Shown here piece after piece: positions 6,384 through 64,000 of a stretch of 64,000 nucleotides of DNA. The stretch's first letter is position 1. Every line of letters begins with the position of its first letter. Origin of the DNA: Mermis nigrescens (lineage: Eukaryota > Nematoda > Enoplea > Mermithida > Mermithidae); the NCBI GenBank assembly GCA_036768485.1, contig JAVLUZ010000654.1, positions 1 to 64,000 on the forward strand. Reading direction: 5' to 3'. Below the pieces are notes generated by a model. That model was not told the DNA's origin. It was given only the letters and a program-made list of their open reading frames with translations, and did no database searches. The position numbers and the translations under genes were made by a program.

Positions 6384-12962
<6,579 letters not shown>

Positions 12963-53176: not shown

Positions 53177-54000
53177 ATTACCCCTGTTAGATTAAGATTA
53201 TTGGACAAATAGTTCTATACCCACCTAGTCAATACAAACAATCAAACAGATTTTACTCCAGTGAAAGGAATTTAGAGATTCTAAGCTGCGTACAATAAAT
53301 GCTTTGTATGATTAGAAAATCGAAGATAAATTTGTTATTCATACTTAATTATAATTACGTTTGGCACACCGTTCCGCAGTCAGGTCAAGTGTTTTACCAA
53401 ATGGGACAACGCAAAAAAGAAATCCATTTTACTTATAGAAAGATGAAATTCACAAAACAGTTTTATTTATTTATTTTTTTCAAATCAAGTTTTACATTGC
53501 GAACATGGGCCTGACTAAAAAAAGAGCGCAACACATGTTTAGTAGATATAGATATGCGACGTAGGTAGGTATGCGGAATCAGAACGCATGCGTGTATGAA
53601 CATTATTCAATTGGAAATAAAAGCTAATATTGACGTTAAAACAAATGACTAAATCCAACTCCTGCACAAGCCACAAAGTGAGCAAAAAAGGTTAATTCGA
53701 ACTTCTTCAGTTTGGGGTTAGTAATAAAATTTCTTGTTGTTATTGTGCTTTTCATACGTTTTATGTATGTGGTAGCACTCCTGCTTAGGTTATAACTCCC
53801 ATGTTGGTCGATTATTAAGTACTCCAGCTTACTTTGAGATTATAGGCGTTACCATGAAACTCACTAGCAGGTTTTAGGCAGTTCACTTCAATGTCACTTC
53901 CTCCAATTCAATTAATTGCGGCACGAGCAAAGCGACGTTAAAATTAGCTACAGTATCTAACACAATATTTTAACTGTAATCGATATCTAGCTCGCTTATT
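53177..54000. other. hAT-like element interior; no gene seen
   Basis: AT-rich, no transposase signature, no other repeat recognised. The only stretch of the 5.8-kb element that could be original interior. Confidence 0.4.
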
Positions 54001-54390
54001 TTAGAAAACCTCGAATTTTCACCAAAACCCCAAAAAAACCTCAAAAATTTCCGAAAACCTCAACGAAAACCCCAAAAAATAAAAACCTCAAACGTTAGAA
54101 AACACCTCAAAATTTGAGGTAAATTCCCACGGTTGGCAACCCTGGTTGCGTTGCGTGCGAACATTCGTAACATGCGAAACGACAGTAAAACATGATTTCT
54201 TGAAAACAGCAATTATTTATATCTTGCCGCCATACCTGAACTGATACCTAGGTATTTCACGCTTATATTGTCTTTTGAGTGTGCTGTCTTTTTCCTTTAA
54301 CTTTGCAGTTTTCCCTTAAATTTAATCCGTGCAAATCAGGCTAAAACACGAGTTCAGGATTTTTATACAGTATTTTAGGCTTCTCTCCAT

Positions 54391-54408
54391 GACTCGATAT
54401 AAATACTA
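54391..54408 (+). promoter_or_regulatory. Candidate TATA box of the retrotransposon LTR
   Basis: TATAAAT at 54398-54404, upstream of the leader and about 140 nt before the candidate primer site, the usual place for a U3 promoter. The 5' LTR limits could not be fixed, because the 3' LTR lies outside the window and a hAT-like element appears to interrupt the left part. Confidence 0.3.
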
Positions 54409-54537
54409 TGTGTAACTGCTACAGCCGAGCTGATCAATCATCGTAAAATTATTTTTCGACCCAAAAAATTATCATTTTGGCCATCTAAGAATGTGTAACA
54501 TTTTGTTCACCTTTGTTGTTGTATCGACCCGCGATCG

Positions 54538-54555
54538 TGGCAGTGCGCAATTTAA
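54538..54555 (+). promoter_or_regulatory. Candidate primer-binding site, followed by a 5' splice donor
   Basis: A TGG-starting 18-mer (TGGCAGTGCGCAATTTAA) in the leader upstream of the first ORF, where a tRNA primer site should be. I cannot match it to a specific tRNA, and the usual CA end of an LTR does not lie immediately before it. GTAAGC follows directly at 54556 and is a good donor that could pair with the acceptor at 62572. Both are inferences. Confidence 0.3.
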
Positions 54556-54976
54556 GTAAGCGTCCGTGGTAAAGATTTTGTGTATCGTGGTAAAGCCATC
54601 GTTATTTTTCTATTTCCGTCGGATCTCTATCGACGAAGGCAGCTCTCACGCTCGCATTTTTCTATAAACGTCGACCCTCAGGCGACGATTCATCATTTTT
54701 CTCAACTGACGACGAAATTCCATCATTTAGGTTCTTACCTAATTGTTTTTCTAACCACGTACACGTTCTTGCGCTTTAGGCTTAGTCCTATCTGCTTTCG
54801 ATCATTTCACGTCAGGTATATCTTACTGAACGTAAGGAAGTACTATTTACGTGAAAAAACCGGTTTTTCGGATCGACAAAGGCCTAATTCGAAACATTTA
54901 TTTTGGGAAAAATTTCGACGTACTGAAATTTATTTTACCCAAAGGCACATTTTTTTGACATAGTTGACACATAAAA

Positions 54977-55411
54977 ATGGCAGGAAAAAAGGTTTTGCGG
55001 ACACCGCCCGCTAAATTGAAAAAACCTTCTACGCCACCTGCTTCAGCTCGCCCATTACCTACCGCGCCTGTTGACTCTAATAGCGCGTGTAATTCTGCGA
55101 GTAATGACACAATTACGAGAGACGTAACGACTAAGGTGAATAATGATAAATTACCCGCGTCACTACATGCCGCGAGTAATACACAGTCTGAAGATGAATT
55201 ATCATTGAGTACCATGCGATCTCGCATTAATCAATCTTCGCTAACTAGATCGGATCCTAATATTGACAATTCATCAAGTCACACAATGATCGATAATACG
55301 ACTACCATTAACACGGCAAATAATCCTGAAACCAGTTCAGAGCGCAAAATTCACGATTCTGACGTAGAAAGTAATCATAGTCGCAGCATACGTCATTTTC
55401 ACACAATTTGA
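54977..55411 (+). CDS. First ORF of the retrotransposon: possible gag N-terminus, cut by an insertion
   Basis: 144 residues beginning MAGKKVLRTPPAKLKKPS, basic at first, then Ser, Asn and Thr-rich. It is the first substantial ORF after the leader, and its composition matches the following gag segments. It stops at TGA 55409. The next 800 bases look like an inserted DNA element, after which gag-like coding resumes. Start chosen because this is the first in-frame ATG and has a purine at -3. It may instead be a separate small leader protein. Confidence 0.45.
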   Translation: MAGKKVLRTPPAKLKKPSTPPASARPLPTAPVDSNSACNSASNDTITRDVTTKVNNDKLPASLHAASNTQSEDELSLSTMRSRINQSSLTRSDPNIDNSSSHTMIDNTTTINTANNPETSSERKIHDSDVESNHSRSIRHFHTI

Positions 55412-56240
55412 TAATTTGAGTACATTTATGAGTATAACTTTTGATCCGCTGGTTTTTATTATGAGAATAAATACAATAAATGATCTCAATTCATTCAGCA
55501 TGCTCAAAAATTAGTCCACGTTTCATGTTATAACATGCCTACACTTTGACAGTCGGTAAAAGCTGATGAACCTGCTCACCATTGAATAACTCATTTCAGT
55601 GAAGTGAGGTTTTTTGAGATGAACTCAAGAACCACTGAACAGATTTTCATGAAATAATGTGTTTTAGGTAGAAAATTTCAAAATGAAACTATTTTGCCAA
55701 AAACAGTATAGCTAGCTTATGTCTACAGTATGCTAGGCTCAAAAAAGTGCTCAAACTTTGCTTGGTCACTACAGTATACAGGTTAAGTTTCATATTTCAG
55801 AAAATAGCAAAATAGTTAGATATTTTTGTGCTCTTGATTTCACCTTTTTGTTTTTCGTGTTTTTGAATACTTCATCCTGCAAATCCAATTTAATTTTTTT
55901 CCAATATGGCTGCCCCCCAAAGGTGTGCATTTTACTCGCGCTATGTTCCATATTTTTCGATGTTTAAGCACATTTTAGAAAGCCCAAAAAAGCTCATTCG
56001 AACGATATATTATTTGTCTGATTTACTAAAGAATTCCAGTTTTTCAATATGGCCGCCAAGAAGACTGTCATACTGTAGCTTTTGATGTTTTCAGCTATTA
56101 TTCTGTGAGTTTCTGACATATTTAAAATTTTTCAGTAAATAGCTAGAAAATTTTATGTTCTTTCTAATGAACTATGTCTTATGTTCTGAATCTTTCTAGT
56201 TCTTTCAGGGAAGTTCAAAAACCTCAAAATTATTCATTGT
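55412..56240. mobile_element. MITE-like insertion splitting gag
   Basis: No coding in any frame. Left edge TGATAATTTGAGT and right edge ACCTCAAAATTATTCA are imperfect inverted termini. Inside, two similar tracts (caatatggctgcc near 55900 and caatatggccgcc near 56050) suggest an internal duplication. Coding of the same style lies on both sides, so it reads as an insertion into gag. The exact ends and target duplication are uncertain. Confidence 0.45.
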
Positions 56241-56555
56241 ATGGTGAAAACAGCGTGCATGAATGCCGACAGAGAGCGTGCTAATGCTAATGTGACTAAT
56301 GATCTTATTTTGAAAGCGCTACAAGCTATTCATTTGCAATTTTCGGATCTTTCTACGCGCGTTGATCAAGATAAAAAGGAAAATGCGGATGAAATGCGTA
56401 AACTGCGTTTGGAGCTAAGCACTATGCTTAAACCCCAACCAGTTCTGAATCGCATAGAAACTAATGTATCTGAGCGCGTCAACCACTCAATCAATAGCGC
56501 AAATTTTTCTGAATTCAATGCGCAAAGTGCGGAATCGTGCGCAAAGTACGCATAG
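56241..56555 (+). pseudogene. gag: Retrotransposon gag, helical N-terminal segment
   Basis: 104 residues, with a heptad-like acidic/basic stretch (LILKALQAIHLQFSDL, then a DQDKKENADEMRK-like helix) suggesting a coiled coil, as often seen ahead of the capsid in gypsy-type Gag. It runs directly into the 56464 frame near 56530. Its ATG at 56241 may not be the true start, because an apparent insertion (55412-56240) separates it from the upstream 54977 ORF. Confidence 0.5.
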
Positions 56556-57312
56556 GGCATCTTCACTGTTGTCTACTAGCAACAGAGCATCGAATTCACG
56601 CTCACCTTCGGAAACTGTTCCAGAAAATATCTCTCAAAGTTGTACGAATCGCGCGCCGGAAATATGTAATTTGTCACAGAATCCTGTAAACACGGGTTTG
56701 CAACCAGTACAAAACTCAGGTTTTCCGGAGAATATATCTACAATTTCGCAGCCGTCGGTATCAATTTCGCAGACGTCGCGATCTCGGCCTTCGCTGCCAT
56801 TAAATCTTAATGCGCCTTCCTTCGTACCTAATCCTTCTATTGCGAATTTGCAGCAGCAACTAAATCCACCACCGCTGCAGTATTTTCCACCTCAAGGAGA
56901 AATCTTAGCCAATAATTATGTACCTAATCCTATAAATGTAGAAATACCACCTAATAATCCTATCTTGCATTCTTCTAATATCGAAATGCAACCAGTTGAG
57001 ATAAATTTATCTGGTATTAATAATGAATCTGCAAATTTGCAAAATGAATCTGCTCCTCAATCTGAATCATCTAGTAGGAGAAAACATGTCAAATTCTCTG
57101 ATGACAGCTCATCTAATAGTTATGATCGCCCGCGCAGTCGTCGCTTGCGTCGCAAATCTCGATCGCACAGACGACGTCATAGGCATAGTTCAGGTTCTTC
57201 ATCTGAAAGCTCGCGTGGTGATTCACGTCTCACTGATTCCTTGAATCATCGGACCATTTTGCAGCAGATGCAATTTGCAATTGCAAATAAAAAATTTTTT
57301 GAGCGGCAATAA
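56464..57312 (+). pseudogene. gag: Retrotransposon gag, N-terminal/matrix-like part with RS-rich tract
   Basis: Low-complexity Ser, Asn, Pro and Gln-rich protein. It ends in a strongly Arg/Ser-rich tract (about 57075-57230; SRRLRRKSRSHRRRHRHSSG), then enters the capsid domain in another frame. It continues from the preceding 56241 frame. The RS-rich tract recalls nuclear or RNA-binding linkers. No catalytic domain is visible. It is read as part of Gag from its position and frame continuity. Confidence 0.55.
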
Positions 57313-57601
57313 ATCAGATATAAAGGCATATTTTGCAGAATTTGAAATGCTTGCCAATACCTATGATATTGACAAGGCTGATCGTTTAAAATTCGCTACT
57401 GGATTTCTTGACCCTTATGTTTTGTGTTTATACCATTCGTTACCTGCTGATATACAACAATCTTACTCAAAAATGAAACAAGCGCTAATAACCGAATTTT
57501 GTCCTATGGACACTGGTGCGCTCTTTAATCGTTTTTGTCACACAAACAGCAGCCTAACGAATCGGTTAAAGCTTATTATCTATCGCTTCGCGAAGAGTTA
57601 A
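57275..57601 (+). pseudogene. gag: Retrotransposon gag, middle part: capsid domain N-terminal half
   Basis: This frame holds a Gag capsid signature: NFLSGNKSDIKAYFAEFEM, then LKFATGF, then a short helix ending LITEFCP. These are the usual features of a Ty3/gypsy capsid domain. It enters from the 56464 frame around 57290, at a run of six A then six T, and leaves to the 57535 frame around 57540. The homopolymer at the first junction could be a real 1-nt indel or a sequencing indel. Confidence 0.7.
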
Positions 57602-58100
57602 TTAAATCGGATCCCTATCTTGAAGTTGACTTGCTGCATTTTAATAATTTAATGCGACATCAACTAAAACAAGGGTTATTACCACACATTTCGAAAGAGG
57701 CATATCATAAAAAACCTAGAGCATCATTAGCGGAATTTTTGGACAATGCGCTTAGCGCTGAATTTGCTAATAAAGAATTTGAGGATAAAAAGGCAGTAAC
57801 GCCTTACGTATCGGTAACAGCTGCTCCAGTAGGCAGCGTAGTACCTAAAGATACTCCTCGCGCATCTAACCAAAATGATCCAAATCGTTCACGTCATCAA
57901 ACGTTTCATCGCTCATCGCGTGCTGAGAAACCAGAAAATTCTTCTCGTAAATATTGTACCTTTTGCAAGCGCATAGGTCACATTTATGAGGAATGTTTCA
58001 CGCGTCAAAGGCAAGAAACGTCTAATAATGCTAATTTTAATAATCAAGCTGATCGGAATACTAATTCTATGGCGCGCAATCGCAGCCAATTGCGTTCTTT
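57535..58100 (+). pseudogene. gag: Retrotransposon gag, 3' part: capsid C-terminus and CCHC nucleocapsid
   Basis: Contains the second half of a retrotrans_gag-type capsid domain (the stretch beginning QQPNESVKAYYLSLRE resembles the conserved Q-x-P-x-E-S-V region). A CCHC zinc knuckle C-x2-C-x4-H-x4-C follows at C141, C144, H149 and C154 counted from ATG 57535. After about position 58100 this frame stops looking like protein, and sensible composition moves to the protease frame. The knuckle packages the element RNA. It follows the 57275 segment in another frame, so gag is broken in this copy. Confidence 0.8.
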
Positions 58101-59396
58101 TCGCGACAAAATCGTTCGCCATCGCGTTCGAATTCGCAAAATAGGCATCGATCTCAATCACGATATCGTAACTCTAGTCAACATCGTTCATCTAACTATG
58201 CGAATAATGATAATCGCTTTGAATCAAAGCAATCACGATCGAATTTTCGGCAAAATCGTAATGATCATTACCAAAATTCGCATGCTAATTATCAAAATTC
58301 GCGTTACGATAATTGTTATAATAACCAATCGCGCCAAAATACACCTTTTGTGCAATTTCCTAATGAACAGCGTGGGACATACTATAACTCTAATTATCGC
58401 AGCGATAATAATTTCAATCGCCCGTATGTCACATATACTGCAGACAACCAACCCGCCTTGAATGTACCCCCACCGCAGCCAACCCTTACATCTCCTCGTG
58501 ATGTGAACACGGTTACTGCGAAAGAGCAAGAATCTAGCGCGCGTCCTAATTTATTCGCGTCGCAAGAATTTCTTGAAGAGTACGAACGTCTACAACGTCG
58601 TCTTGCAACTTACGAAAAAATTAATCTACCTCCATCTAAGACTTTCGATCCTAATATTCCTATCGTAAGCCATGCTGGGACAAATTTACCCACTATTCTC
58701 GTTAAAGTTCATGGCGTTGACGTGCCTGCTCTGATAGACACGGGTTCACAGGTCACCATGATGACCACGTCTGCATTCTTACGTCTTGGTTTTAATTTAC
58801 CACCTAAGCAAGTTTCACAAGTCGTACATGGTGTAGGCGAAATCACTGCAGTAGTTCGTTATCGAGTAAATATGACGTTAACCATCGCAGAACAATCTAT
58901 CTCTACCTCTGTATCTATAATTGATCACTTGCCGGAAGACATGCTTTTAGGATATGATTTTTGCGAATCCGCACTCATGTGGGTTAATCCTATTGAGCGT
59001 TGTGCTTTTATAAACGGCATAAAGGTTAATTTACTTTCATCTCACGAAAAATTGCAATTTCGTGCGAAACCCAACGCAACTACCTCTGGTGTTGTGTGTG
59101 TGCATGTTTCGCTACCTGAGCCTGTTATTATACAACCTAGGCATGAATTAATTACACCTGGCTATATAAGTCACGGTTCTTGCAATTTTGATTTCGCATT
59201 ATTCGAACCAAATCCCGATTTTATGGAAAAAACTTCACTTTTTGTTGCTCCGTCTATAGTCGATGCTTCACAACCTCTAATACCTGTTCGCGTTTGTAAC
59301 ATCTCCAAAGCGCCAATTCGCATTGACTCTGGCGAAATAATAGGTTCTTTAACCTCTGATGCTGAAGTCGTGTCACATGTTTCATCCTTTGGATGA
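58065..59396 (+). CDS. Retrotransposon aspartic protease region (with Arg/Ser/Asn-rich linker)
   Basis: The frame opens at 58065 after a TAA; the first ATG is at 58350. Counting from that ATG, D130-T131-G132 inside VDVPALIDTGSQVTMM is a retropepsin active site, followed by the family-typical LLGYDF near the domain end. It matures Gag and Pol. The N-terminal part is an Arg, Ser, Asn and Gln-rich linker that fits the composition of the nucleocapsid region just upstream, so Gag and protease were probably one frame or joined by frameshift. The frame stops with TGA at 59394, 38 nt inside the pol frame. Whether the two frame changes are programmed or are indels in this copy cannot be told from one sequence. 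No clean XXXYYYZ slippery heptamer was found at the upstream change near 58065-58100. Confidence 0.85.
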   Translation, partial: FYGAQSQPIAFFSRQNRSPSRSNSQNRHRSQSRYRNSSQHRSSNYANNDNRFESKQSRSNFRQNRNDHYQNSHANYQNSRYDNCYNNQSRQNTPFVQFPNEQRGTYYNSNYRSDNNFNRPYVTYTADNQPALNVPPPQPTLTSPRDVNTVTAKEQESSARPNLFASQEFLEEYERLQRRLATYEKINLPPSKTFDPNIPIVSHAGTNLPTILVKVHGVDVPALIDTGSQVTMMTTSAFLRLGFNLPPKQVSQVVHGVGEITAVVRYRVNMTLTIAEQSISTSVSIIDHLPEDMLLGYDFCESALMWVNPIERCAFINGIKVNLLSSHEKLQFRAKPNATTSGVVCVHVSLPEPVIIQPRHELITPGYISHGSCNFDFALFEPNPDFMEKTSLFVAPSIVDASQPLIPVRVCNISKAPIRIDSGEIIGSLTSDAEVVSHVSSFG

Positions 59397-62300
59397 TAGG
59401 ACACCAGAACTTTTTGCATCAATAAATAAAGCTTTAAACGGCTCCGCCGTTGATTCTAGACAGCAGCAACAAATTTGTGAACTTTGCTTAAAATACGACT
59501 CAATTTTTGCATTAAAAAATGAACCTCTCGGTCGTACCCCCTTGATGAAACATCATATTGACACAGGGGATAATCCACCCGTTGTTGGAAAAACTTATCG
59601 TGTTGAACATTCTAGAAGGGAATCCATGCAGAAAATTATAAATGAAATGCTTGCGGATAAAATTATTCGACCTACAACTAGCCCATGGGCAAGTCCATTA
59701 TTTCTCATTGGAAAAAAGGACGGTTCCCTTAGGCCAGTCGTCGATTATCGACGGTTAAATGACGTCACTAAAACGCAAGTTTACCCTCTTCCACAATTAG
59801 ACGATTATTTCGATACTTTAGGCAGTGCTGCATATTTTAGCACACTAGATTTGAAATCTGGATATTGGCAAATTCCACTCGATAATAAATCTCGCGAAAA
59901 AACAGCATTTATATGTCCTGTTGGTCATTACGAATTTGAAGTTTTACCTTTTGGTTTAAAGAATGCGCCCGCAGATTTTCAAAGACTAATGGAGCTTGTG
60001 CTCGCAGGTCTAAATTGGAAATCTTGTCTCGTTTACATCGATGACATAATTATTTTTTCACGTACTTTCGAAGAACATTTAAAAGATCTTGAAAATGTCT
60101 TCATTGCTCTTAAAAAGGCAAACTTACGTGTCAAGCCTGATAAATGCCATCTTGCGCATGCAGAGGTAAAATTTCTTGGCCACAGCATCAGTGCAATGGG
60201 CATCGCTCCCGATATGTCTAAAGTCGCAGATTTAATCTCGTTTCCCGTACCAAAAACCGTTAAATCCGTGCAGAAATTCCTTGGCTTAGTCCAATGGTTT
60301 AAGAAATTCGTTAAAGATCTCGCTAAAATCGCTAAACCGCTATTCCATCTTCTTCGTAAAGATGTCGAATTTTGCTGGAAGGCTGAGCACCAAACCGCTT
60401 TTGAGCTTCTGAAGAAAGCATTTACATCTCCACCTATTTTGCAATTACCAAAATTCGATGATGAGCACCAATTTATTTTAACAACTGACGCAAGTAACTA
60501 TGCGTTAGGTGCTATTTTGACGCAAAAACATTTGCCATCCAAAAATCGTTTTATTCTTAGCTACGCTAGTCGTGTGCTAAATTCTGCTGAATGTAATTAT
60601 GCTACTTCAGAAAAAGAAGCGCTAGCGGTAGTGTGGGCCATCAAGCATTATCGACATTATCTTTACGGTAAAAAATTCATTGTCGAAACTGATCATCAAG
60701 CGTTAACCTGGCTAGTAAATGTTAAAGACCCATCGAGTCGATTACGCCGTTGGGGTCTCAAATTACAGGAATACGAATATGATATCGTTTACGTTCCTGG
60801 TGCATATAACTGCGCAGCTGATCTTCTTTCACGTCACCCTAAATATGATCATGCAGAACGCAAATATAAAGTAGAGCGCAAAAATATCGTTAACATCGCA
60901 AATTTAGAATCCGAAGATTCTGAGTCAGATGATGAATCGGTTCCACCTGACCGATCGTGCGATAATGCGCCTACTGCGCCAATTAATCATCCAAACGCAC
61001 AAAATAATAATCCTACTGCGCAAACCGATCCTATTAATTCTAAACCACCTACATTTCGCGAACGCTTGTTACTTACCGATGCAGAAAAAGCTGAAATGCT
61101 AACACCTGCGCGTTTACTCGCTGAGCAACGTGCAGATGACGAATTGCATAAAATTCGCATCGCATTGAATGACTTAACAACGAAAAAATATCGTGACGAA
61201 TTTTTTCTCGTAAACGATGTACTTTTTTGTCGTTTTCAACCTAAGCGTTCACCAACTGTCGTTCATCAAATTGTCATACCCAAATCTTTGCGTCGCTTCA
61301 TATTAACGGAATTTCATGACTCTATTTTCGGAGCTCATTTTTCATCGCGCAAAATCTTGCCCGCCATACAAATGCGTTATTGGTGGCCGCGCATGGAAAA
61401 TGATGTGATCGCGTGGTGTAGGAATTGTGATGTGTGCTTACAACGTAAGGTCGCATTAAATTCCACATCCGTTCCGTTGCAACCAATCGAAGTATCCGCG
61501 CCCTTTGAACTCATTGCGTGCGATTGCTTGCATATGCCGCGATCCCCCTCCGGAAATGACCAAATTGTAGTTTTTATGGATTATTTTACAAAATATGTGG
61601 AAGCTTTTGCTGTTTCTGACATAAAAGCAACAACTATTGCAAATTTATTACTAAGAGAAATTATACCACGTTATGGAGTCCCCAAGAAATTTTTGACAGA
61701 TCAGGGGTCAAATTTTACATCTACCCTAATTTCGGAAGTTTGTAAACTATTAAACGTTCAAAAAATATTTACAACCCCATATCACCCCCAGTGTGATGGG
61801 TTGGTGGAACGTTATAATCGTACATTGATTGATGGTTTGTCTAAGCTGAGTGCGCGATCACAGTATGATTGGGAACAATTTTTACCCTTCGCATTATTTG
61901 CATACCGCGCGACTCCACAATCATCAACTAATATATCTCCTTTTGAAATGCTTTATGGTCGTGAACCAGCATTTCCTCTTGACACTTTACTTATAAATGA
62001 CTTCGTGATAAATCCGAATTTACCATCTGTTGCGGAAAAATATGTCATTGATTTAAAGCTGACTTTACAAGATCTACATGAAATCGCGTCTCAAAATCTA
62101 ACTCAAGCGCGTAAGCAGCAAAAATCGCAATATGACAAATCCGTAACGCACACAAATTTTAATCTCTCGGATATTGTCTACCTCAATAATACCTCAGTCA
62201 TTCAACCTGAAATCGGTAAACTATCACCCAAGCGTGTTGGTCCATACCGAATTATTGACTTACCTACGCCTGAAACTGCGAAAATCGCATATGTCTATAA

Positions 62301-62667
62301 TCCTCTCATCATTCATCACGTTCACAGGAATAGACTTTTGCCTGAACCTAAATTACCTTATTCTGACTTAATTGTGGAAAAACACGCGTACGTCCCTGGC
62401 GATTTTGTGTTGGTAAAGTTACCACATCGCCCTCTTGCCCCGGCAGTTGTCATAAGTTTTGAGGATTTACCGGGCAGGGAACAAAAAGCTAAGGACTGCG
62501 CGCCTGTACGTTTATTAAATGGTTCTAAAACAGCACATGCCGTACCATTATCTAATGTTTTTCCTTTTGCAGACCCATGGCTGCACAAGGTACCCCTAGC
62601 AAGGAGGCATTGTTGGAAGCAGCTGGTCGCCGATGCAAATTCGAGGGGCGTGATCCCGCGTCCCTAG
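59353..62667 (+). CDS. pol: Ty3/gypsy-type pol: reverse transcriptase, RNase H, integrase
   Basis: 1102 residues from the ATG at 59359; the frame opens at about 59353. Reverse transcriptase spans roughly residues 85-275 with SPWASPLFLIGKKDGSLRP, LPFGLKNAP and the catalytic YIDD at 227-230. RNase H runs about 374-494 (D377 in TTDASN, E419, D445, D488). Integrase has an HHCC zinc finger (H653, H660, C690, C693), a core with D722, D781 and E817 (D,D-35-E spacing) and a GPY motif (RVGPY) near 955. The order RT-RH-INT puts it in Ty3/gypsy (Metaviridae-like), not Ty1/copia. It makes the cDNA and integrates it. The protease lies upstream in another frame with a 38-nt overlap, so this copy has a frame break between PR and RT. 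Pol itself is undamaged, implying a fairly young copy. Confidence 0.95.
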   Translation, partial: PLMLKSCHMFHPLDDRTPELFASINKALNGSAVDSRQQQQICELCLKYDSIFALKNEPLGRTPLMKHHIDTGDNPPVVGKTYRVEHSRRESMQKIINEMLADKIIRPTTSPWASPLFLIGKKDGSLRPVVDYRRLNDVTKTQVYPLPQLDDYFDTLGSAAYFSTLDLKSGYWQIPLDNKSREKTAFICPVGHYEFEVLPFGLKNAPADFQRLMELVLAGLNWKSCLVYIDDIIIFSRTFEEHLKDLENVFIALKKANLRVKPDKCHLAHAEVKFLGHSISAMGIAPDMSKVADLISFPVPKTVKSVQKFLGLVQWFKKFVKDLAKIAKPLFHLLRKDVEFCWKAEHQTAFELLKKAFTSPPILQLPKFDDEHQFILTTDASNYALGAILTQKHLPSKNRFILSYASRVLNSAECNYATSEKEALAVVWAIKHYRHYLYGKKFIVETDHQALTWLVNVKDPSSRLRRWGLKLQEYEYDIVYVPGAYNCAADLLSRHPKYDHAERKYKVERKNIVNIANLESEDSESDDESVPPDRSCDNAPTAPINHPNAQNNNPTAQTDPINSKPPTFRERLLLTDAEKAEMLTPARLLAEQRADDELHKIRIALNDLTTKKYRDEFFLVNDVLFCRFQPKRSPTVVHQIVIPKSLRRFILTEFHDSIFGAHFSSRKILPAIQMRYWWPRMENDVIAWCRNCDVCLQRKVALNSTSVPLQPIEVSAPFELIACDCLHMPRSPSGNDQIVVFMDYFTKYVEAFAVSDIKATTIANLLLREIIPRYGVPKKFLTDQGSNFTSTLISEVCKLLNVQKIFTTPYHPQCDGLVERYNRTLIDGLSKLSARSQYDWEQFLPFALFAYRATPQSSTNISPFEMLYGREPAFPLDTLLINDFVINPNLPSVAEKYVIDLKLTLQDLHEIASQNLTQARKQQKSQYDKSVTHTNFNLSDIVYLNNTSVIQPEIGKLSPKRVGPYRIIDLPTPETAKIAYVYNPLIIHHVHRNRLLPEPKLPYSDLIVEKHAYVPGDFVLVKLPHRPLAPAVVISFEDLPGREQKAKDCAPVRLLNGSKTAHAVPLSNVFPFADPWLHKVPLARRHCWKQLVADANSRGVIPRP
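62556..62572 (+). promoter_or_regulatory. Strong 3' splice-site sequence just upstream of the exonuclease ATG
   Basis: A pyrimidine tract ending TTTTTCCTTTTGCAG finishes at 62572, and the ATG of the exonuclease ORF begins at 62577. It lies inside the pol reading frame, where it encodes a plain SNVFPFA. Such an acceptor would allow a spliced subgenomic mRNA, as known for env of gypsy-type errantiviruses. Use in vivo is inferred. Confidence 0.5.
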
Positions 62668-64000
62668 ATGAGTTTTGTTCGGCGTTGACCAGTATGGCTT
62701 TGGAGCGGGGCTTGGTCGTACCAGACCCGCTGCCCCAAAACAATAATAGTCGTGTTGGCGGTCTAGAATCACTTACCGCAAAATGGATAAAGCATAAAGC
62801 AACACATAAAATCGCAAATCACAGAAAGCGTATAAACGACCAACAACTCTGGTGGGAGAATCGGCTTGGTAGATGTCCTTTGGTAACCCCTCGCGTACCA
62901 AAGAATAGACTTCTACCCACCGTCATAGTCTCCAACGACCAGAAGTCGTTTGACGCCATTTTGGCGTTAATTCAGCCATCAAATATGACTAATGGCACTT
63001 TATTTCTAGGCTACGACTCTGAATTTGTGAATGACAGAAAAGGCAGGCATTATAAGACCTGGGACTTGCGTTTTCAGCAACTATGTCCCACTTACCAGGA
63101 CCTCCATGGCCCATTCGTACGCTACGTCCAAGTTGCGAGCGCGAATGGCCATGTGTTCTGTTGGGATCTAGCGAAGTTCCCGCAACCTCCGTTCGGGCTT
63201 CACCAGTTGCTTGAAACGCGCTTACCTAACGTATATATGGTTTGTTACGATCCGACGCAAGATCGACTTGCGTATTTCCATGTCTACGGGCCAACCTTTG
63301 AGGAAATTGTGGCAATTCCGGATGCAGAAATTCGCAATAAACTGCACTGGAAAGATCCATTTATTGCAAATTTTATTGACATTCAGCCATTGGCGAGAAC
63401 ATTTACTCGTCGTTTACGCATTAAAGCGCAATCGCACTCGTTAAAGCGCTTGGCAGAATTCTTTTTTGACATGTATATTGATCCGAACGCGCCTGGTAAC
63501 TTCGGACAGGCGTGGAGCTTACCCTTAACTCGGGACATGCAGCATTATCTAGCGATGGACGCCCTCATAACTATCGATGTTTTTATATTGATAGAAGGGT
63601 GCTCGCAAGATAATCGCATTACTGACGATAGAAAGCCCATGTCGGTTTCTTTCGTAGGCGATGAGTTATACATTAAGGCTAGTGGCCCGAAAGCCAAAGT
63701 ATGCATACCATTGTCAACTAGTAAGCCACCACAAGGACAGTCGACCAGCGCAGCTGTTGATGCTGAAGTTGATTCAAATGGCGAAGAGTTAATCCTAGCT
63801 GAGGAATTTTATTGCCCAGCTCCGCAACCGCAAGTAGCTATAGCGGCAGCCACCACCATTGCCTCAGTAACGGAAGCGTTGGCTCACGCTAACGTGTTTG
63901 ACAATCCTGACTTACAAGTGCAGGCTTCGCAAACCGTTGCCGACACAGTTTCGGGCCCGGTAAATGCGCCTGACACGGAACCTAAGTCAAAACCAACCAG
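62577..64000 (+). CDS. Third ORF of LTR retrotransposon: DEDDy 3'-5' exonuclease (partial, runs off window)
   Basis: Open for 474 codons to the window edge with no stop. It starts at ATG 62577 and overlaps the pol 3' end by 91 nt in another frame. Residues about 140-345 read as a DnaQ-like DEDDy exonuclease of the WRN/EXD2 type. Exo I is YDSEF (D147, E149), Exo II has D229 in CYDPTQD, and Exo III is YLAMD (Y324, D328). Between them are a family-typical D-x-x-x-L-A stretch, an SLKRLAE helix and a W-S-x-x-L-T step before Exo III. The N-terminal 140 residues (basic, WIKHKATHK) and the tail after 350 (Ala/Pro/Thr-rich) are not recognised. A polypyrimidine tract and CAG end at 62572, just before the ATG. 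Hand-counted GC in four 60-nt lines is about 51%, against 38% in three pol lines. Known of the family: these enzymes remove 3'-terminal nucleotides from DNA or RNA. Its role in the element is inferred, not known. It sits where env would be. Confidence 0.85.
   Translation, partial: MAAQGTPSKEALLEAAGRRCKFEGRDPASLDEFCSALTSMALERGLVVPDPLPQNNNSRVGGLESLTAKWIKHKATHKIANHRKRINDQQLWWENRLGRCPLVTPRVPKNRLLPTVIVSNDQKSFDAILALIQPSNMTNGTLFLGYDSEFVNDRKGRHYKTWDLRFQQLCPTYQDLHGPFVRYVQVASANGHVFCWDLAKFPQPPFGLHQLLETRLPNVYMVCYDPTQDRLAYFHVYGPTFEEIVAIPDAEIRNKLHWKDPFIANFIDIQPLARTFTRRLRIKAQSHSLKRLAEFFFDMYIDPNAPGNFGQAWSLPLTRDMQHYLAMDALITIDVFILIEGCSQDNRITDDRKPMSVSFVGDELYIKASGPKAKVCIPLSTSKPPQGQSTSAAVDAEVDSNGEELILAEEFYCPAPQPQVAIAAATTIASVTEALAHANVFDNPDLQVQASQTVADTVSGPVNAPDTEPKSKPT

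Follow-up and report, generated by a model that had tools for sequence, protein, structure and literature searches.

According to a 2019 paper, a DnaQ-like exonuclease is among the well-known accessory domains of long terminal repeat (LTR) transposons (PMC6338049). Rodriguez, Kenefick and Arkhipova (2017) describe a third open reading frame (ORF3) downstream of pol, which encodes a DEDDy exonuclease, in two kinds of LTR retrotransposon of bdelloid rotifers, Juno and Vesta, as well as in their Athena/Terminon elements, and suggest a role for it in 3'-end processing or silencing, its activity being yet to be demonstrated (PMC5408684). Here, we describe an ORF3 of this type in a high-copy Ty3/gypsy LTR retrotransposon of the nematode Mermis nigrescens, found at the end of a 64,000-nucleotide stretch (the window), which comprises bases 1-64000 of contig C610 (GenBank JAVLUZ010000654.1). 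Locus L009 (C610:62001-72000) continues past the window end. The preliminary description of the window had stated that it knew of no such element, a statement that both publications fail to support. All genome searches covered 523,963,438 bases (~524 Mb) in 860 contigs; the genome report gives 524,220,005 bp, 867 scaffolds and 83.98% repeats for the published assembly (PMC10989877).

The ORF3 of the Mermis element starts with an ATG at 62577, meets no stop codon before the window end and terminates at contig position 66671 (L009:4671), and thus encodes 1364 amino acids (aa) in a single frame, almost three times the length of the part visible in the window. The uninterrupted frame of at least 474 codons reported earlier is therefore confirmed and extended. 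When the 4.1 kb of ORF3 were shuffled 2000 times with a first-order Markov model, no open frame on either strand (six frames) exceeded 330 codons, the longest one seen. The start of ORF3 overlaps the end of pol by 91 nt (62577-62667) in a different frame. Beyond the exonuclease domain, the protein consists of an acidic segment rich in Ala, Pro and Ser, a middle part and a strongly basic Arg/Gln-rich tail. No known relatives were found for the middle part, with a best PDB match of E 0.091 for residues 681-1010, and a separate fold model of these residues was discarded as meaningless (mean predicted local distance difference test, pLDDT, 37.1).

Profile and fold evidence shows that ORF3 carries a WRN/RNase D-like DEDDy exonuclease domain, as had been proposed from the window alone. 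All five catalytic residues (D147, E149, D229, Y324 and D328) are intact in the window ORF3 at the positions reported before, and eight of ten aligned ORF3s across divergent groups keep all five, while the exceptions, L037 and L039, are close relatives whose losses differ. The within-genome ORF3 profile was built from nine sequences, the near-identical or partial copies L002, L004, L007, L008, L031, L035, L036, L040 and L041 being left out. Two relatives, L003 (40.4 bits) and L006 (35.3 bits), score above the curated PF01612 cut-off of 23.6 bits, which serves the detection rather than the definition of DEDDy exonucleases. The model of the ORF3 exonuclease has a DnaQ-like fold. A tblastn search of the window ORF3 against the other loci at E 1e-3 returned only itself, and kinship to the others is visible by profiles only. 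Among 5.8 billion predicted proteins, a collection that may hold few animal genomes, no homologue was found at E 0.001 either for ORF3 residues 60-400 (1446 candidates) or for the ORF3 alignment A2 (3189 candidates).

Copies of ORF3 are abundant in the genome. Using the 474 window residues as query, and taking the best 90 of 2665 candidates (window copy included), we found ORF3 in at least 90 places on dozens of contigs, with 93-100% identity, 89 of the 90 matching across the full query and three containing stop codons. A candidate start of the 3' LTR lies downstream of ORF3 at contig position 67541, where TG follows the purine-rich GTGGGGGAG; a TGTA start after purines was seen in seven of eight LTR pairs examined from other element groups. 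A 300-base query taken from this position gave at least 40 full-length matches and one partial match, and the spacing was compared between the 90 ORF3 places and the 40 LTR matches listed, on the same strand. Among the matches listed, LTR sequence is located 8318-8618 bp upstream of ORF3 in nine places and 4500-4970 bp downstream in ten, including the window copy (4964 bp), and 19 of the 40 LTR matches are explained by a listed ORF3 place. Six ORF3 places, all of them other copies, possess LTRs on both sides at near-fixed distances, with an element span of 13.27-13.59 kb from LTR start to LTR start, and by position these LTRs are paired around gag-pol as in Ty3/gypsy elements. ORF3 is thus the third ORF of the element, as had been suggested; the search for exonuclease copies between paired LTRs, which had been recommended, succeeded in these six, and in none of the ten copies with a listed 3' LTR does this repeat start right after pol. 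The earlier observation is right and stronger than it was stated, apart from its claim of novelty.

Judging from the spacing in other copies, the window copy would be expected to have its 5' LTR at 54227-54907 (with a length guessed at ~680), but no resemblance to the 3' LTR was detected there. Window positions 53726-54415, loosely aligned with L045, scored 521 against a shuffle maximum of 385; this local alignment was not used, since its gap costs were too lax: under the same costs, the other pairs with listed scores aligned end to end yet fell below their own shuffle maximum. In addition, inverted arms of ~325 bases with 79% identity follow the C41 copy (L044:1392-1713 and 1860-2184), and the sequence of one of them is also present after the window copy (L009:6120-6442).

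Upstream of ORF3, the complete gypsy-type reverse transcriptase, RNase H and integrase reported earlier are found in pol, where the reverse transcriptase (PF00078, 125.2 bits), RNase H (PF17917, 123.1), H2C2 (PF17921, 69.6) and rve (PF00665, 45.3) domains all score above their Pfam cut-offs. The domain order of protease, reverse transcriptase, RNase H and integrase is that of Ty3/gypsy elements (Metaviridae). The C-terminus of the integrase (62398-62571) has a weak PWWP match of 18.3 bits, below the cut-off of 25.6. A CCHC-like knuckle, judged by eye, is present in the last gag-like frame, and the splitting of gag over several frames in the window copy may reflect mutation or assembly indels. 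An AT-rich segment of ~830 bp without long frames (55412-56240), possibly an insertion in the window copy, separates two gag-like frames. An Rfam scan of the window gave no matches. The features are collected in the table.

Table. Features of the ORF3-bearing element in the window and of related gag-pol frames (positions are those of the window unless a locus is named)
Feature	Position	Strand	Evidence
144-aa ORF, possibly the N-terminal part of a gag (candidate part of the element)	54977..55411	+	ORF scan
Gag-like region, overlapping frames 56241-56555, 56464-57312, 57275-57601 and 57535-58461	56241..58461	+	ORF scan
Aspartic protease ORF	58350..59396	+	PF13650, 48.2 bits
pol, 1102 aa: reverse transcriptase, RNase H and integrase (zinc-binding and core parts), with a weak PWWP-like match at the C-terminus	59359..62667	+	Pfam
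Splice-acceptor-like TTTTTCCTTTTGCAG, separated by 4 nt from the ORF3 ATG; possible acceptor for a spliced ORF3 mRNA	62558..62572	+	no shuffle control
ORF3, first 474 of 1364 codons	62577..64000	+	open frame; rest in contig to 66671
DEDDy 3'-5' exonuclease domain of ORF3	62754..63659	+	
Motif I, D147-x-E149	63015..63023	+	D in 9/10 and E in 9/10 aligned ORF3s
Motif II, D229	63261..63263	+	10/10 aligned ORF3s
Motif III, Y324-x3-D328	63546..63560	+	10/10 aligned ORF3s
Group A gag-pol frames with PF24664	L012:1558-7602, L016:1382-8860, L025:1154-8143 (minus)		Pfam

Besides the window family, two further groups of elements (A and B) in the same genome carry an exonuclease match. Eight of ten locus pairs of groups A and B, of which group B contributes a single one (L026/L027), have repeats of 490-637 bp with 99.2-100% identity flanking pol and the exonuclease match, while one of the remaining pairs has a 118-bp repeat and the other none; three groups of LTR elements therefore carry the exonuclease gene. 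All three group A gag-pol frames that were scanned whole possess a Monjiviricetes fusion glycoprotein (PF24664) with 56.7-63.9 bits (cut-off 27), located downstream of the gag region and ahead of the protease within one long frame, so that these three elements possess both a viral fusion protein of class III and the exonuclease ORF3. PF24664 was found neither in the scanned group B piece L026:5639-7720 nor in the window ORFs scanned, namely protease, pol and ORF3. The integrase of the group B element L026 (7737-9635) ends in a PWWP domain of 41.8 bits (cut-off 25.6), and PWWP at this position is possibly a chromatin-reading module for targeting. Host-like DEDDy genes are also present in the genome, namely an EXOSC10/RRP6-like exon (L042) and a stand-alone PF01612 frame (L043:3778-4260, 35.9 bits), which the ORF3 profile matches at 37.2 bits (at most 4.4 in 300 shuffles). 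L043 is possibly a host relative of ORF3, and the origin of ORF3 from a host gene is a lead only.

In addition to the site before the window ORF3, acceptor-like sites precede ORF3 in other elements, with TTTCCTAG directly adjoining the ATG in L003/L004 and TTTTTCTAG ending 21 bases before it in L033/L035. In group A locus L018, pol is separated from the ORF3 ATG by ~0.75 kb without long frames (8964-9712), whereas the two genes overlap in the window element. Together, the acceptor-like sites and this gap suggest, from the sequence, that ORF3 may be expressed from a spliced mRNA. Selection was assessed with ten ORFs, and 24 of the 45 pairs (those above 45% identity) were considered; L034 and L041 carry frameshifts close to their ends. 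Between group A families, the proportion of silent differences is saturated (pS 0.80-0.89) and that of replacement differences is 0.24-0.38 (pN), pointing to long-term constraint on the ORF3 protein.

We propose, with medium confidence, that ORF3 is the third gene of this high-copy Ty3/gypsy retrotransposon and encodes an active DEDDy 3'-5' exonuclease, which probably trims the 3' ends of element RNA or complementary DNA (cDNA). The proposal is based on the location of ORF3 between pol and the 3' LTR, the near-fixed LTR spacing in six other copies, the motifs, the kinship to DEDDy proteins and the presence of related genes in groups A and B. The protein would be made from a cis- or trans-spliced mRNA via the acceptor-like site beside its ATG and, given its five catalytic residues, may cleave as a 3'-5' exonuclease. 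Its substrate could be the 3' ends of element RNA or of single-stranded cDNA during replication, and the basic Arg/Gln-rich C-terminus might hold it on nucleic acid.

A number of observations weigh against this proposal. The PF01612 check recommended earlier gave 13.3-16.6 bits for the window ORF (15.6 in the Pfam scan that also covered protease and pol), below the cut-off, and the 22 places that PF01612 finds in the genome do not include the window family, so the identity of the window ORF3 rests on within-genome profiles and fold. The confidence of the fold model is moderate (mean pLDDT 57.7, predicted template modelling score 0.63); Foldseek ranked Rrp6 first (E 4.9e-7) and WRN at rank 19, while WRN shares its Z score of 15.0 with a DNA polymerase I. 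BLAST found no 5' LTR for the window copy, and none was found for the C41 copy in 2.5 kb of upstream sequence; upstream DNA was read for these two copies of the family. Among the matches and places listed, 77 of the 90 ORF3 places have no LTR and 21 of the 40 LTR matches have no ORF3 nearby, and some of the listed copies may be assembly duplicates. In 12 of 17 ORF3s, no acceptor-like site is found up to 25 nt from the ATG, sites being scored without shuffle control. The three youngest copy pairs have ratios of nonsynonymous to synonymous substitution (dN/dS) of 0.66-0.89, in which strong recent constraint is not visible. Moreover, Rodriguez et al. report no unambiguous link between ORF3s and copy number in rotifers (PMC5408684).

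The absence of a detectable 5' LTR from the window copy, as well as the host-like genes L042 and L043, would fit a host exonuclease gene lying beside a truncated element. However, this explanation is refuted, its remaining probability being negligible, because near-identical ORF3 copies occur in so many places, six of which are enclosed by a pair of LTRs at near-fixed distances. A decayed or unusual env-like protein with an incidental likeness to exonucleases is just as improbable: although ORF3 follows pol, where env would lie, the exonuclease motifs and fold are intact, the highest 19-residue Kyte-Doolittle mean is 1.68 and falls at residue 325 within the exonuclease domain, and all three group A gag-pol frames scanned whole have a separate fusion glycoprotein.

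Other explanations accept the exonuclease domain and differ in its use. Mut-7 and Nibbler are DEDDy relatives that act on small RNAs, and the ORF3 exonuclease might likewise counter silencing by degrading or over-trimming small RNAs of the host or their precursors, an alternative that we regard as possible although somewhat unlikely. It is more doubtful that ORF3 serves in structure or transport, with catalysis dispensable and the exonuclease fold used for binding nucleic acid, as it is in Egalitarian and Exd1. The retention of all five catalytic residues in eight of the ten aligned ORF3s speaks against binding alone, the exceptions, L037 and L039, being close relatives with differing losses. 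A very improbable reading is that a nematode retroelement lineage has become a proofreading retrovirus, in which ORF3 would partner the reverse transcriptase of the element and correct or trim its cDNA. Like ExoN in large nidoviruses, it would thereby permit large genomes, here of 13-14 kb, and sister elements would add a class III fusion glycoprotein inside Gag-Pol.

With the Mermis element, a peculiarity described for rotifer elements is extended to a nematode, where most of the ORF3 copies are open. The same type of enzyme recurs across different LTR elements, which suggests that retroelements benefit from a 3'-5' exonuclease, and with its many copies and open frames the Mermis family could serve for testing such a benefit. 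The sister elements, which join a viral class III fusion glycoprotein and an exonuclease, would be of interest to retrovirus evolution.

Among the papers listed by searches of an open-access library, none on such an element in nematodes was found. The WRN exonuclease domain, RRP6, RNase D, EXD2, Nibbler/mut-7 and Egalitarian share the catalytic motifs and fold of ORF3, but they belong to cellular genes and are only ~12-21% identical to it over the fold. We know of no cellular DEDDy exonuclease gene with a reverse transcriptase neighbour. KolobokD is also a transposon with an exonuclease of the DnaQ superfamily, but it is a DNA transposon and its nuclease is DEDDh rather than DEDDy (PMC9587614), and Terminons/Athena carry DEDDy 3'-exonucleases as accessory ORFs (PMC6431247), although they are telomere-associated elements with a Penelope-like reverse transcriptase and not LTR elements. 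In Juno and Vesta, gag and pol are likewise followed, past the integrase and inside the LTRs, by a third ORF for an RNase D/WRN-like DEDDy exonuclease, and they likewise represent several ORF3-carrying element groups of one genome (PMC5408684). Unlike the Mermis element, in whose protease and pol ORFs in the window Pfam gives no dUTPase match at E 0.1, they have a dUTPase between the protease and the reverse transcriptase; their DEDD motif is altered to DEED, while the third residue in Mermis is D; and they average 1-2 full-length copies per family, compared with the at least 90 ORF3 places in Mermis (PMC5408684). Their hosts are bdelloid rotifers, whereas the 1364-aa ORF3 described here comes from a nematode. 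The type of element is already known from rotifers, and the Mermis family is an abundant variant of it with features of its own.
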